Positions 38,065-56,315 of a stretch of 63,254 nt of DNA are shown one piece after another (the first letter of the stretch is position 1; every line of letters starts with the position of its first letter). This stretch comes from Candidatus Peregrinibacteria bacterium (GTDB lineage: Bacteria > Patescibacteriota > Gracilibacteria > UBA1369 > PNNO01). Location of the stretch: contig JAFGJT010000004.1 in NCBI GenBank assembly GCA_016928915.1, forward strand, positions 1-63,254, given 5' to 3'. Below the pieces are notes generated by a model. The model saw only the letters and a list, made by a program, of their open reading frames with translations. It had not been told where the DNA came from and searched no databases. A program made the translations under genes and the position numbers.

Positions 38065-38090
38065 AATTACTGTAATTATAGTAATTTTAT
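38065..38090 (+). terminator. Weak AT-only terminator-like hairpin
   Basis: aattact (38065-38071) pairs with agtaatt (38080-38086), followed by ttat. It lies between two convergent genes separated by 11 nt and extends into the 3' end of the minus-strand gene. Confidence 0.35.
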
Positions 38091-38873
38091 TATTTCTATT
38101 GGGAATTTAATTGTTGCGTTATATATCCTTTTCCAGCGTGTTGGCTCCTGAAAAAGCCTGTAAAGCCATTCAAGACCAATAATCTGCATCCATACAGGCG
38201 CTCTTTTACGTTTTCCGGATATAAAATCGAATGCCCCTCCCACGCCAATGGCAATTTTAACTGTTTTAAGGTTTTTTAAATTTTCATAAATCCACATTTC
38301 CTGTTTTGGAGCCCCAAAAGCAACAAAAAGAATATCTGCTTCCGATTTGTTAATAAGCTGAACAATAGTGTCTTTATCCTTTAATTCCGCGGATCCCGCA
38401 AAAGTTCCCACAATTTTAAGGGCAGGGGATTTTTGCTGGAGTTTTTCTTTGGTTATTTCAGCTATACCGGGCACTGCACCCAGCAGGAAAACTTTATAGG
38501 GAGTTCCGGCCGATCTTTCACATATTTTTTGAATTAAATCGGTGCCGGTTACTCTTTCTTTTAAAACTGTCTTAAATTTCTTGGGATATAACGCTATTAA
38601 AGGAAGATTCAGGATGGCTTTTAATTTTGAATTGTGTTTTTCCATGTTGTAAGCAGCCCAGAGGATGCCAATTCCGTCAGCTATATTCAATAACGAATTG
38701 TTAATAACATTTAAGAATGGGCTGTTTTTTTGAGCTTCCAGCAGCATTTCGGGATTCGGGGTGCAAATATATCCTTTATTGTCTTTATTTAAATATTTAA
38801 ATATTAAATTTAACGCTTCTATCTGCGTAACATTATCAAACATGATATTCATTACATTTATTTTATTTTGCAT
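38076..38873 (-). CDS. WecG/TagA/CpsF-family glycosyltransferase
   Basis: 265 residues. Seen: 'YICTPNPEMLLEAQKN', 'NIADGIGILWAAY', 'VTGTDLIQKICERSA', 'VFLLGAVPGIAEITKEKL', 'DILFVAFGAPKQEMWIYENL' and 'VGGAFDFISGKRKRAPVWMQIIGLEWLYRLFQEP'. These are the conserved blocks of GT26 enzymes that add ManNAc-type sugars to lipid-linked carriers. It suggests a teichoic-acid-like or surface glycan pathway. It overlaps the methyltransferase gene by 16 nt. Confidence 0.93.
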   Translation of the reverse strand: MQNKINVMNIMFDNVTQIEALNLIFKYLNKDNKGYICTPNPEMLLEAQKNSPFLNVINNSLLNIADGIGILWAAYNMEKHNSKLKAILNLPLIALYPKKFKTVLKERVTGTDLIQKICERSAGTPYKVFLLGAVPGIAEITKEKLQQKSPALKIVGTFAGSAELKDKDTIVQLINKSEADILFVAFGAPKQEMWIYENLKNLKTVKIAIGVGGAFDFISGKRKRAPVWMQIIGLEWLYRLFQEPTRWKRIYNATIKFPIEIIKLL

Positions 38874-39532
38874 ACAAGGCAGTGATTATGGTTGCTTGTA
38901 AATTCTAATATTTTAAAGCCGTTTTTAACAAAAAGATTTTTTAATTCTCTCTTATTAAAAGCATGATAGTATCTTAACACTTTTTTATTACCCCAGGGGA
39001 TAAATGTATCATTCCAATTATATTTTCCAAGCTGTATAAAATATTTGAACAATGATTTTAAAATATAGCTAAAATATTTTGGTTGAAATAGATTCCAAAC
39101 AGTAATGATTAAAACTGAATTTGGAGTTAGAAGCCTTTTGATTTCTTGAATACATTTTATGCGCAACTTATTTGAAGGAATGTGATGAAAACTTGCAATG
39201 ATAAACAAAATATCAACTTTAGAAGAGTAGGGGATTGATAAGGCGTTTCCGTATAAAAATTTTGCACTCTTGAATTTTTCTTTTGCAAGTTGAACAAATT
39301 TTTTGTTATTATCTATTCCAACATATTTTAGATTTTTCAAGTCCTTTAAAAGTGGGTATAATCTTCCGTTGCCACAACCAAGATCAAGTATCGTCTGTCC
39401 GTCTTTTAAATATTTTTTAAAACCTTCAAATTCCGGCCAGAGCCACTTTCTTGTTTCTGAAAATTCGTCAGCTATTAGATCATAATCTTGCTCGACTTTT
39501 TTTAATAATTGTTTTGCAGTACTTTCTTTCAT
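38858..39532 (-). CDS. Trm9/ALKBH8-like class I SAM methyltransferase, candidate tRNA wobble-uridine enzyme
   Basis: 224 residues. The N-terminal YDLIADEFSETRKWLWPEF (17-35) and SAM motif I LDLGCGNGRL (49-58) are followed by a class I Rossmann core with FHHIPSNKLR. A C-terminal block contains NDTFIPW (174-180) and RYYHAFNKREL (187-197). The same block order, with YD.IA..FS.TR, D.FVPW and RYYH, marks yeast Trm9 and the ALKBH8 methyltransferase, which turn cm5U34 into mcm5U34 with the partner Trm112. No Trm112-like gene is visible here. The gene is head-to-head with elp3, 41 nt apart, which supports a joint role (inference). Confidence 0.75.
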   Translation of the reverse strand: MKESTAKQLLKKVEQDYDLIADEFSETRKWLWPEFEGFKKYLKDGQTILDLGCGNGRLYPLLKDLKNLKYVGIDNNKKFVQLAKEKFKSAKFLYGNALSIPYSSKVDILFIIASFHHIPSNKLRIKCIQEIKRLLTPNSVLIITVWNLFQPKYFSYILKSLFKYFIQLGKYNWNDTFIPWGNKKVLRYYHAFNKRELKNLFVKNGFKILEFTSNHNHCLVCKIK

Positions 39533-39573
39533 AAGCTAAAATACAGACCTGTTTAAACATACTAAAAACCGAT

Positions 39574-41175
39574 ATGAACCGCAAGCACGAGAATCTTCAG
39601 GAGAATATAATTGAAGCAATGCTCAAAGAGGCATTAAAATTAAAAGTGAAGTCCCAAAAAGAGCTCCAATCATTAAAGAACCAATATTCCCTTAAATATA
39701 AAATAAGTTCACCTTCAAATGTTGCTTTAATAAGAACTTATAGAAATCTTGTTGAAAAGGGCAAAATCAGAGATGATAAAGGTTTTTTTCATCTTATTAA
39801 AAAGAGAAAAATCAGGTCGGAATCGGGGATTGCGAATATAACTGTTATTACCAAGCACTATAAATGCCCGGGAAATTGTATCTACTGTCCTTCAGAGCCC
39901 AATATGCCCAAGAGCTACCTCTCAAACGAACCTGCCATGATGAGGGCAATTTTAAATGATTTTGATGCTGAAAGTCAGGTCAGAAATCGTTTGTCGGGAC
40001 TCCAAAGAACCGGACACAATACCGATAAAATAGAGATTATTGTTGCCGGAGGCACTTTTTCATTTTATCCAAAAATTTATCAAACTTCCTTTGTTAGAGA
40101 TGTTTATAATGCTTTAAATGGAAAGAAATCAAGAACTCTTGTTGAAGCACAAAGTTTAAATGAAACGGCACAACATCGATGTGTTGGGCTTTCTCTTGAA
40201 ACCCGACCGGACTGGATAAACATTGATGAGATAAAAAGAATGCGAAATCTTGGCGCTACAAAAGTTGAAATCGGAATTCAGTCTTTGGACGAAGAAGTTC
40301 TTAAAATGAACAACAGGGGACACGGAGTTAAAGAAATCCGCATTGCCATGAAGCTTTTAAAAGACGCAGGATTTAAGATTAATGCCCATATAATGCCGAA
40401 TTTATACGGAAGTTCCATTGAAAAAGATATTGAAATCTTTACCAATTTATTTGAAGATAGTGATTTTAGACCGGATTGGCTGAAAATTTATCCATGTGTA
40501 GTAACTCCCTATTCGCAGCTTGAAAAGATGTGGAGAAAAGGCTTGTTTAAGTCTTATTCTGATGAGGAGCTAATAAAATTAATGATTGAGCTTAAAAAAC
40601 TAGTTCCCGAGTATGTTAGGATTGCACGTTTGTACAGAGATATTCCGGCTGAAAGCATTTTGGCGGGTTCGAAAATTTCAAACTTACGACAGATTGTTCA
40701 CAAAACAATGGCTGAAACAGGGGACAGATGCAAATGTATCCGCTGCCGTGAAATAAAAACAACCATCCCCGATCCCGAAAATATTAAATTAGTTGAAAGA
40801 TCTTATTATTCTTCTGACGGAAAAGAACACTTTTTAAGCTTTGAAGACACAAAAAATGATAAACTAATAGCCTTTCTGCGCCTGCGCATCCCCTCACAGA
40901 TATTCAAGTACGAAAAACATTTTATTAAAGAGCTTTCCGGCTCTTCTATAATAAGGGAATTGCATACTTATGGTGAGCATTTGCCCATAAAGGACCATAA
41001 AACCGAGGCTTCTCAGCACCAGGGTTATGGAAAAAGGTTAATAGAAAAAGCAGAGGAAATAACATACAATTACGGATTAAATAAAATTGCCGTAATTTCA
41101 GGCATCGGTGTTCGTGAATATTATAAGAAAAGACGATTTGAATTGCAGGGGACATATATGGTTAAGTCCCTTTAA
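39574..41175 (+). CDS. elp3: Elp3-family tRNA uridine(34) acetyltransferase/radical SAM enzyme
   Basis: 533 residues, both catalytic halves intact. The radical SAM part has 'HYKCPGNCIYCPSEPNMPKSY' with Cys98, Cys102 and Cys105 as cluster ligands, and 'KVEIGIQSLDEEVLKMNNRGH'. The GNAT part (about 400-533) has QHQGYGKRLIEKAEEI for acetyl-CoA and 'GIGVREYYKKRRFELQGTYMVK' at the end. Characterised bacterial and archaeal Elp3 form cm5U at the wobble position of tRNA from acetyl-CoA and SAM. It occurs without other Elongator subunits in these lineages. The divergent Trm9-like gene would supply the next step. Confidence 0.95.
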   Translation: MNRKHENLQENIIEAMLKEALKLKVKSQKELQSLKNQYSLKYKISSPSNVALIRTYRNLVEKGKIRDDKGFFHLIKKRKIRSESGIANITVITKHYKCPGNCIYCPSEPNMPKSYLSNEPAMMRAILNDFDAESQVRNRLSGLQRTGHNTDKIEIIVAGGTFSFYPKIYQTSFVRDVYNALNGKKSRTLVEAQSLNETAQHRCVGLSLETRPDWINIDEIKRMRNLGATKVEIGIQSLDEEVLKMNNRGHGVKEIRIAMKLLKDAGFKINAHIMPNLYGSSIEKDIEIFTNLFEDSDFRPDWLKIYPCVVTPYSQLEKMWRKGLFKSYSDEELIKLMIELKKLVPEYVRIARLYRDIPAESILAGSKISNLRQIVHKTMAETGDRCKCIRCREIKTTIPDPENIKLVERSYYSSDGKEHFLSFEDTKNDKLIAFLRLRIPSQIFKYEKHFIKELSGSSIIRELHTYGEHLPIKDHKTEASQHQGYGKRLIEKAEEITYNYGLNKIAVISGIGVREYYKKRRFELQGTYMVKSL

Positions 41176-54055: not shown

Positions 54056-55096
54056 ATGTTAGATCAGGAAATATTAAAAAAACGCATGTCTTTCATTAAA
54101 ACAATATGTTTTTTTGACTGTTTTGATTTTGCTTTAACAAACGAGGAAATCTGTGAGTATATGCTATATAAAAAGTGGTCTTATGATGAACTTTATAATT
54201 TTATAAACCACGAGGAGTTTGTGATTGAAAACAACTGCCATGTTTATTTAAAAGGCAGATTCTTAACAGTGGATGTAAGGACAGATATGGAACACAGGGC
54301 AAAAAAGCTAATCAGAAAGGCTCAAAAGTTTATCAAATATATGCAGTTGCTGCCATTTATAAGAATGATCGGGATATGCAACAGCCTTGCATTTTATGAT
54401 GCTGATAAAGGAAGCGATATTGATATCTTTATAATAACAGAAAAAAACAGGTTGTTTACAGCCAGGCTGTTTGCTTTTATCTTTACGCAATTTTTGGGCA
54501 TAAGGAGGCATGGTAGAAAAATAAAGGGTAGGTTTTGTTTAAGTTTTTGGGTTTCCAGAGACAATATGAATCTGGAAACTTTAAAACTAAATACTGATGA
54601 TATTTATTTTATTTATTGGATAAGATTGATGCAGCCTATAATAGGCAAAAAGACTTACATGGATTTTCTTAATGAAAATGCGTGGATACATAATTATTTT
54701 GAATATGAGTTTGAGCAAAATAAATTTATACTGCCCGAATCCGGAGTTATAATTAGGCTACAGAAATTGTTTGAGTTTCCGCTGAAAGGAATTATTGGTA
54801 ATTTTATCGAAAATATTATTGGAAAACTGCAAAAACGGCGTTCGGAAAGGAAAGCAAAAAAACTTGAAAGCAGAAGCGGCATTCTTATTACTGACACAAT
54901 ATTAAAATTTCATGATATAGATATGAGGGAGCGATATTCCTTTTTATGGAAGAAAAGAATTAATCAGTTTGAGAAATATTTCATTCCCGGCGTTCGCGGC
55001 TCCGAAAAACAAGGCTTATCGCTGTACCCGAAAATTGATACTGCTTCCGTATTTCATTCTCAAGATAGCGCTTATATGAAAAATGGAGCGCATTAG
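54056..55096 (+). CDS. Nucleotidyltransferase-like protein, function unknown
   Basis: About 346 residues from ATG 54056. The region around residues 108-132 has 'RMIGICNSLAFYDADKGSDIDIFIIT', a pol-beta nucleotidyltransferase pattern (Gly-x-x-x-x-Ser then Asp-x-Asp) with GSDIDIFIIT carrying the metal Asps. The strict GS pair is relaxed to GICNS. The rest is helical and basic with no recognised domain; a helix-turn-helix-like segment may occur near residues 25-55. The last ~38 residues are read across the antisense end of der. Substrate is unknown. Confidence 0.7.
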   Translation: MLDQEILKKRMSFIKTICFFDCFDFALTNEEICEYMLYKKWSYDELYNFINHEEFVIENNCHVYLKGRFLTVDVRTDMEHRAKKLIRKAQKFIKYMQLLPFIRMIGICNSLAFYDADKGSDIDIFIITEKNRLFTARLFAFIFTQFLGIRRHGRKIKGRFCLSFWVSRDNMNLETLKLNTDDIYFIYWIRLMQPIIGKKTYMDFLNENAWIHNYFEYEFEQNKFILPESGVIIRLQKLFEFPLKGIIGNFIENIIGKLQKRRSERKAKKLESRSGILITDTILKFHDIDMRERYSFLWKKRINQFEKYFIPGVRGSEKQGLSLYPKIDTASVFHSQDSAYMKNGAH

Positions 55097-56315
55097 CATC
55101 ATTAACAAAAAAGACAAATTCAGGCGGGTTTGTTCCTGTTTGTGAAACATAAAGAATTTTGGGTCTAATTCTTTTTGTGCCTGAAGGAATGTGTTTTGCT
55201 GTTATTTTCTTTACAAAACCGTTTAATTCTCCAGTTGGAATTCGTTTGTTTCTTTCCAAAATAATCTGTTCCGCCAGCTCGAAAACTTTTGTTATATTTT
55301 GTTTATTTAAAGCTGAAATAAAAACTACCGGAGCCCAGGGCAAGAATGCAAATTTGCTTTTTGCCTTTGCAATAAATTTAAGCTTGTCATCGTTGTCATC
55401 AGCTAAATCGCTTTTGTTAATAACAAGAATTAAACCTTTTTTTGCCTCTAGGATAAATTCAGCTATATGCATGTCCTGTTTCGTTATTCCTTCGGAAAAA
55501 TCGAGCATCAAAAGAGCGATGTCGCTTGCATCCAGCGCATGAAAAACACGCAGGCTTGAGAATTTTTCAATACCCTTTTCTATTCTGCCTCTGCGTCTTA
55601 AACCCGCGGTATCAACAAGAATAATTTTTTTTTCATTATAATTGAGGTGAATATCGAGGCTGTCGCGTGTTGTGCCGGGTATATCAGAAACAATTACCCT
55701 TTTTTCACCAAGAAGAGCGTTGATTAATGAAGATTTGCCCACATTAGGTTTTCCGAGCAGGCATAGTTTAATAACATCACTTTTTTTCTTACCCTCTTTT
55801 ACAGGTTTGAATTTAAGAGCTTTTAATGTTTTGACTGTAGTGTTTTTAAGCTCATCTATTCCGGTGTTGTGTATTGAAGATACTCCCACAGGGTCCCCAA
55901 AACCCAGAGCGTACAGCTCCGGCAGTCTGCCAAAGGATGCATTACTGTCGTATTTATTGGCAATTAAAATTATTTTTTTGTTAGATCTTCTTAATAAGTC
56001 GGAAGCCGCATAATCATCAATTGTTAACTGTTCCGCCGCATTAACTACAAAATAAATCAGATCCGCTTCCTGTACGGCTATTTGCGCCTGAGATTTAATA
56101 TCATTTTCAATATTTTTTTTTGTTTCGGATGAAAGTCCGCCGGTATCTATTAATGTAACCGGGAAGTCATTGATGGATATATTTTGGTAAATTCTGTCGC
56201 GGGTCGTGCCCGCTTCTTTAGAAATTATAGACAAACGTCTGCCTATTAACCTGTTAAATAAGGTTGATTTGCCAACATTAGGTCGTCCCACGATTGCAAT
56301 TATCGGTTTTTCCAT
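54981..56315 (-). CDS. der: Ribosome biogenesis GTPase Der (EngA)
   Basis: 444 residues with two GTPase domains: first G1 GRPNVGKST (10-18) with 'SKEAGTTRDRIYQ' and 'DTGG', second G1 GKPNVGKSS with 'VSDIPGTTRDSLDIHL', then the KH-like C-terminal domain ending in 'HFSYKRYLENEIRKQY.FSGTAISLVFRSR', the usual end. Der is needed for 50S assembly. Its 3' end overlaps the convergent gene by 116 nt. Confidence 0.98.
   Translation of the reverse strand: MEKPIIAIVGRPNVGKSTLFNRLIGRRLSIISKEAGTTRDRIYQNISINDFPVTLIDTGGLSSETKKNIENDIKSQAQIAVQEADLIYFVVNAAEQLTIDDYAASDLLRRSNKKIILIANKYDSNASFGRLPELYALGFGDPVGVSSIHNTGIDELKNTTVKTLKALKFKPVKEGKKKSDVIKLCLLGKPNVGKSSLINALLGEKRVIVSDIPGTTRDSLDIHLNYNEKKIILVDTAGLRRRGRIEKGIEKFSSLRVFHALDASDIALLMLDFSEGITKQDMHIAEFILEAKKGLILVINKSDLADDNDDKLKFIAKAKSKFAFLPWAPVVFISALNKQNITKVFELAEQIILERNKRIPTGELNGFVKKITAKHIPSGTKRIRPKILYVSQTGTNPPEFVFFVNDANALHFSYKRYLENEIRKQYQFSGTAISLVFRSRERRE

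Follow-up and report, generated by a model that had tools for sequence, protein, structure and literature searches.

In animals, fungi and plants, the decoding (wobble) uridine of certain tRNAs, U34, is methyl-esterified by the products of two types of genes. Both types were found head to head in the window analyzed here, a stretch of 63,254 nucleotides (nt) from a Candidatus Peregrinibacteria bacterium of the candidate phyla radiation (CPR) (contig JAFGJT010000004.1, assembly GCA_016928915.1). One gene is elp3 and the other encodes a Trm9-like methyltransferase. The eukaryotic system consists of Elongator (Elp1-6) with Trm9-Trm112 or ALKBH8-TRMT112. It shares with the window pair the catalytic subunit Elp3, the Trm9-type fold, sequence and active site, and the predicted conversion of U34 to 5-carboxymethyluridine (cm5U34) and then to 5-methoxycarbonylmethyluridine (mcm5U34). 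In contrast, the present system is bacterial, its genes are adjacent and divergent, and no Trm112 was found; thiolation would use MnmA rather than Ncs6/Urm1, and Elp1, Elp2 and Elp4-6, for which no search was made, are not expected.

For some archaea, a pathway had been predicted that uses Elp3 and Trm9 and none of the other Elongator subunits, and the genes are clustered in Sulfolobus (PMC2584109, PMC5372719). The predicted Haloferax pair, HVO_2888 with HVO_1032 or HVO_0574, resembles the window pair in combining Elp3 with a Trm9 homologue and no other Elongator subunits. However, Trm112 is widespread in archaea and occurs there in fusion with some of the Trm9 candidates (PMC5372719), whereas no Trm112 gene was found here and a fixed head-to-head layout recurs across a bacterial phylum. 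Dehalococcoides mccartyi Elp3 is also bacterial and its structure is solved (PMC6367351), with no Trm9 partner described for it. Bacterial MnmE-MnmG acts on the same U34 C5 in the same tRNA set with unrelated enzymes, and MnmG is nearly absent from the phylum of the window organism. E. coli CmoM also performs S-adenosylmethionine (SAM)-dependent methyl esterification of a wobble-uridine carboxylate, although its substrate is uridine 5-oxyacetic acid (cmo5U34). According to a 2017 review, bacterial genes resembling the eukaryotic methyltransferases that partner Trm112 were not detectable.

We propose, with a probability of about 0.82, that elp3 and the Trm9-like gene encode a two-enzyme wobble-uridine pathway from cm5U34 to mcm5U34 that would need no Elongator subunits and, apparently, no Trm112. 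CPR bacteria with the pair probably make an mcm5U-type tRNA modification that has so far been attributed to eukaryotes and, as a prediction, to some archaea. An earlier reading of the DNA made from the sequence only (the sequence-only reading) had suggested this two-gene route, which gains support from the Trm9-type identity, the conserved linkage to elp3 and the lack of a Trm112 match over cut-off in the host, while the chemistry is predicted. That reading had also been aware of no description of such a pathway in bacteria. A full-text search of the open-licence literature returned no account of an Elp3–Trm9-like pair or of a relevant wobble modification in CPR/Patescibacteria, but the route had already been predicted in archaea, so the novelty is limited to the bacterial, Trm112-free setting. 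The mcm5U-type modification is viewed as eukaryotic, perhaps archaeal, and its methyltransferase is known only in Trm112-activated form. A phylum-wide, Trm112-free bacterial pair would therefore broaden the known range of mcm5U chemistry and offer a simple two-protein study system, and it makes one ask whether common ancestry or transfer between domains accounts for the pathway.

Identity of the two proteins

The methyltransferase (METHYLTRANSFERASE) showed only generic matches in Pfam and NCBIfam, well under the cut-off of every named NCBIfam family. Its nearest solved relative was Trm9 by sequence, profile and fold alike. A single-sequence search of the PDB gave Yarrowia Trm9 (5cm2) as the top match (E 7.9e-11), and a profile of 21 sequences again placed 5cm2 first, at 1.8e-29, with the runner-up at 1.6e-20. 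The fold search with the predicted model (predicted local distance difference test score 94.5) also ranked 5cm2 at the top with an E of 4.6e-15, followed by a structure at 1.5e-12. Using a profile of 30 CPR homologues, we obtained 104.6 bits for Trm9, compared with 34.1 for UbiE, 32.0 for BioC, 21.4 for CmoM, 17.3 for CmoA and 14.2 for CmoB, all from E. coli. Identities as UbiE/MenG, BioC and CmoM were rejected on these scores; the NCBIfam UbiE model, moreover, gave 42.7 bits against a cut-off of 158.35.

Mutation of R29, H115, R241, Y243 or N271 in yeast Trm9 reduces tRNA affinity and activity (PMC5372719). Their counterparts in the methyltransferase were R28, H116 or H117 (the alignment does not choose between the two histidines), R187, Y189 and N216. 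The family alignment revealed that R28, H117 and N216 were invariant and that Y189 was variable in some relatives. Two motif blocks had been claimed by the sequence-only reading, and both were present, the N-terminal block YDLIADEFSETR and the C-terminal DTFIPW-GNKKVL-RYYHAF, although PW and RYYHAF were separated by six residues and not by three. The claimed resemblance to Trm9 was borne out, as Trm9 led in all three PDB comparisons and the critical residues were retained, and the profile scores did not place the protein with UbiE, the outcome that the sequence-only reading had set against its own claim.

The window Elp3 matched TIGR01211 with 582 bits (cut-off, 350) over residues 16-533. The closest PDB chain was the archaeal M. 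infernus (Min) Elp3 (E 5.8e-131, 441 bits), with an alignment extending through the lysine acetyltransferase (KAT) domain; it ranked above D. mccartyi Elp3 (378 bits) and above eukaryotic proteins (species of the chains as given in PMC6367351). The radical SAM cysteines C98, C102 and C105 and the tunnel residues E209, K304 and Y306 were all kept, the residue equivalence being taken from the PDB alignment (chain numbering plus 16). Mutants of the corresponding Min Elp3 residues E207, K302 and Y304 abolished or nearly abolished tRNA modification, with the exception of Y304F (PMC13315578). The window Elp3 should make cm5U34, judging by its sequence. Pfam at 1e-3 scored no separate GNAT domain, but the TIGR01211 and PDB alignments span that region; the protein was intact with its cysteines and GNAT part, as the sequence-only reading had described it.

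Linkage of the two genes and an alternative neighbour of elp3

The phylum sample comprised 287 genomes, in which the methyltransferase was counted at E <= 1e-15 by single-sequence search. Elp3 was present in 106 genomes and the methyltransferase in 71; all 71 carried Elp3, and the methyltransferase was found in none of the 181 Elp3-less genomes (Fisher 4e-41, kinship ignored). The two genes were divergent within 3 kb in 63 of the 71 genomes (within 600 nt in 59), and they lay on different contigs in six others. A further six homologues, with weaker E values of 1e-15 to 1e-10, were likewise head to head with Elp3. Since the pairing recurs in the 39 families over which the 71 genomes are spread, it is far beyond chance. 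Among the 80 best homologues on GTDB contigs, which included Peregrinibacteria, Parcubacteria, Berkelbacteria and other CPR groups, Elp3 was divergent at the same locus in 69, five had too little upstream sequence, and six were without it; this set partly overlaps with the phylum sample, so the two are not fully independent. These results indicated that the linkage is a conserved functional coupling rather than a local accident. The survey of elp3 neighbours in CPR genomes thus did not find the isolated pairing that would have spoken against the sequence-only reading.

We also observed a methyltransferase subclade without Elp3 in the fetched locus (L072, L081, L084, L095 and L096), for which relocated genes or a paralogue with a different role are possible. 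One genome scored as methyltransferase-negative (G076) contained a divergent methyltransferase-like frame head to head with Elp3 (L163:3-683 and 597-2234). The single-sequence search had missed this frame, and the co-occurrence count is therefore a lower bound.

Six Elp3-positive genomes without the methyltransferase (families f28, f40, f50 and f51) carried an asparagine-synthetase-like PP-loop protein of 260-280 residues (AsnB-like) next to elp3, in either divergent or co-directional orientation; in G021 a single small gene separates the two. This protein has no glutaminase domain and its best PDB match was E. coli AsnB (E 4.2e-24); Pfam DUF7411 was at or above its cut-off in two of the three proteins tested. 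All six strong matches in the phylum sample adjoined elp3 and none occurred in a methyltransferase genome (exclusion p = 0.001); no other sample genome had an equally strong match, the next best (E 2.6e-27) lying inside a 572-residue frame. Within family f40, the AsnB-like gene of one genus occupied the position held by the methyltransferase in two others. A class-wide search for further cases covered 7 genomes only. Because AsnB-type carboxylate activation for amidation is what an enzyme converting cm5U to 5-carbamoylmethyluridine (ncm5U) would need, the AsnB-like protein is, in this small sample, a candidate for that step, whose enzyme in yeast is described as unknown (PMC6367351). It is possible, though we regard the idea as tentative, that CPR bacteria use interchangeable elp3-adjacent tailoring of cm5U34, with a Trm112-independent Trm9-like enzyme leading to mcm5U or, in other lineages, an ATP-dependent AsnB-like enzyme leading to ncm5U. 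If true, the synthetase would be a directly testable candidate for the enzyme missing in yeast.

The remaining Elp3-positive genomes, many of them from family f25, had no obvious partner in the flanks examined. In G174, elp3 adjoined QueH-like and Tgt-like genes of the queuosine pathway (L052:3122-4538; translations judged by eye).

Host context, predicted pathway and alternatives

The host assembly totals 1.13 Mb in 20 contigs and is 95.6% complete. A search of it for pathway genes found none of Trm112, MnmE and MnmG over cut-off, which for Trm112 agrees with the sequence-only reading. The best Trm112 match in the host reached 12.9 bits (E 0.165) and was not counted. Trm112 was also not found over cut-off in 27 of the 28 methyltransferase-bearing genomes searched, the lone match (G192) lying inside a 335-residue frame. 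As no Trm112 complex is indicated, the enzyme would work like Trm9 and yet not be a Trm112-dependent Trm9. MnmE yielded only GTPase-domain matches in the host, two of them in the open reading frame region 54981-56315, and neither gene of the MnmE-MnmG pathway was present over cut-off. MnmG occurred in 6 of the 287 sample genomes (G003, G015, G019, G039, G057 and G228), never alongside Elp3 (p = 0.09, a trend), and about 60% of the sample genomes had neither. The pair would explain how part of the CPR copes without MnmEG.

MnmA was found in the host, as were tRNAs for Lys (UUU), Glu (UUC), Gln (UUG), Arg (UCU) and Gly (UCC). The tRNAs with these anticodons are the mcm5U carriers of yeast. Their CNN counterparts (CUU, CUC, CUG, CCU and CCC) were present too, so that NNG reading as such needs no U34 modification, and tuning of NNA and NNG reading is the more likely role. 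In the proposed pathway, Elp3 would use acetyl-CoA and radical SAM chemistry to place a carboxymethyl group onto C5 of U34, and the Trm9-like enzyme would then methylate the carboxylate of cm5U34 with SAM, giving mcm5U34. MnmA could thiolate position 2, leading to mcm5s2U34 on the Lys, Glu and Gln tRNAs. Neither Elongator subunits nor, apparently, Trm112 would be needed for this route, and the host lacks the usual bacterial MnmEG enzymes.

Several points weigh against this proposal. Trm9, ALKBH8 and plant TRM9 require Trm112, which is absent here, and the family must therefore have become self-sufficient or rely on some other partner. About one quarter of the Elp3-positive genomes were without the methyltransferase. 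A tree built from CPR sequences, with a single Trm9 sequence and outgroups from E. coli, put Trm9 on the CPR side and left most of the E. coli relatives outside. The Trm9 branch was long, however, and its support weak, and the placement is indicative only. Finally, both enzyme activities, the order of the reactions and the independence from partner proteins are predictions.

The linkage itself proves only that the two enzymes serve one common process, and class I methyltransferases switch substrate readily. The methyltransferase may thus share the tRNAs of Elp3 while modifying another atom or position, such as a different anticodon-loop base or the U34 2'-OH; we consider this unlikely, as the Trm9 residues that place cm5U34 were retained, with N216 and R28 invariant. 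A similarly low probability applies to cm5U and mcm5U being merely intermediates, with an end product such as ncm5U or 5-(carboxyhydroxymethyl)uridine methyl ester (mchm5U) formed by an enzyme encoded elsewhere. Yeast also converts cm5U to ncm5U, and the AsnB-like enzyme adjoins elp3 in some CPR genomes, but neither the host nor the methyltransferase genomes had this elp3-adjacent enzyme, and three of the latter had only weaker matches in longer proteins elsewhere. Less probable still, the protein could be a carboxyl or quinone methyltransferase of the CmoM or UbiE/BioC type, placed beside elp3 by chance. Generic Pfam families and UbiE models matched moderately and CmoM likewise methylates a wobble-uridine carboxylate, but the protein fell far under the NCBIfam cut-offs (for UbiE, 42.7 bits where 158 are required), CmoM scored 21 bits against 105 for Trm9, and the elp3 neighbourhood was kept in 39 families.

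Layout of the locus

Upon re-reading the sequence, we found the coordinates, strands and spacing reported for the head-to-head pair to be correct (Table 1). As the two starts are only 41 nt apart, promoters, if any, would overlap. A promoter scan of the region 39533-39573 gave no match above a weak level; the sole candidates were weak and included a sigma-70-like match towards elp3 at 39513-39542.

Table 1. Coordinates of the elp3 locus in the window and of AsnB-like genes in other genomes.
Feature	Position	Strand	Description	Evidence
elp3	39574..41175	+	533 aa, intact; radical SAM and KAT; predicted tRNA U34 carboxymethylase (U34 to cm5U34)	TIGR01211; M. infernus Elp3 match
Elp3 C98, C102, C105 (CPGNCIYC)	39865..39888	+	[4Fe-4S] cysteines	sequence
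Elp3 stretch with E209, K304, Y306	40198..40491	+	equivalents of Min Elp3 E207/K302/Y304	PDB alignment
Trm9-like class I SAM methyltransferase	38858..39532	-	224 aa; predicted cm5U34 carboxyl O-methyltransferase (cm5U34 to mcm5U34)	
Methyltransferase R28	39449..39451	-	yeast Trm9 R29 equivalent	alignments; invariant in 21 relatives
Methyltransferase H116-H117	39182..39187	-	Trm9 HH pair that includes H115	alignments; H117 invariant
Methyltransferase R187-Y188-Y189 (RYYH)	38966..38974	-	Trm9 R241/Y243 block	alignments
Methyltransferase N216	38885..38887	-	Trm9 N271 equivalent	alignments; invariant
Intergenic region	39533..39573	.	41 nt between the divergent starts	
WecG/TagA-type glycosyltransferase gene	38076-38873	-	methyltransferase strand; 16-nt overlap with methyltransferase 3' end	
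AsnB-like PP-loop synthetase genes	L031:16-864, L033:702-1481, L041:3349-3780, L042:3210-4022, L165:1822-2610, L166:1539-2324		adjoining elp3	

The same-strand overlap between the glycosyltransferase and methyltransferase genes suggests that they probably share a transcript.
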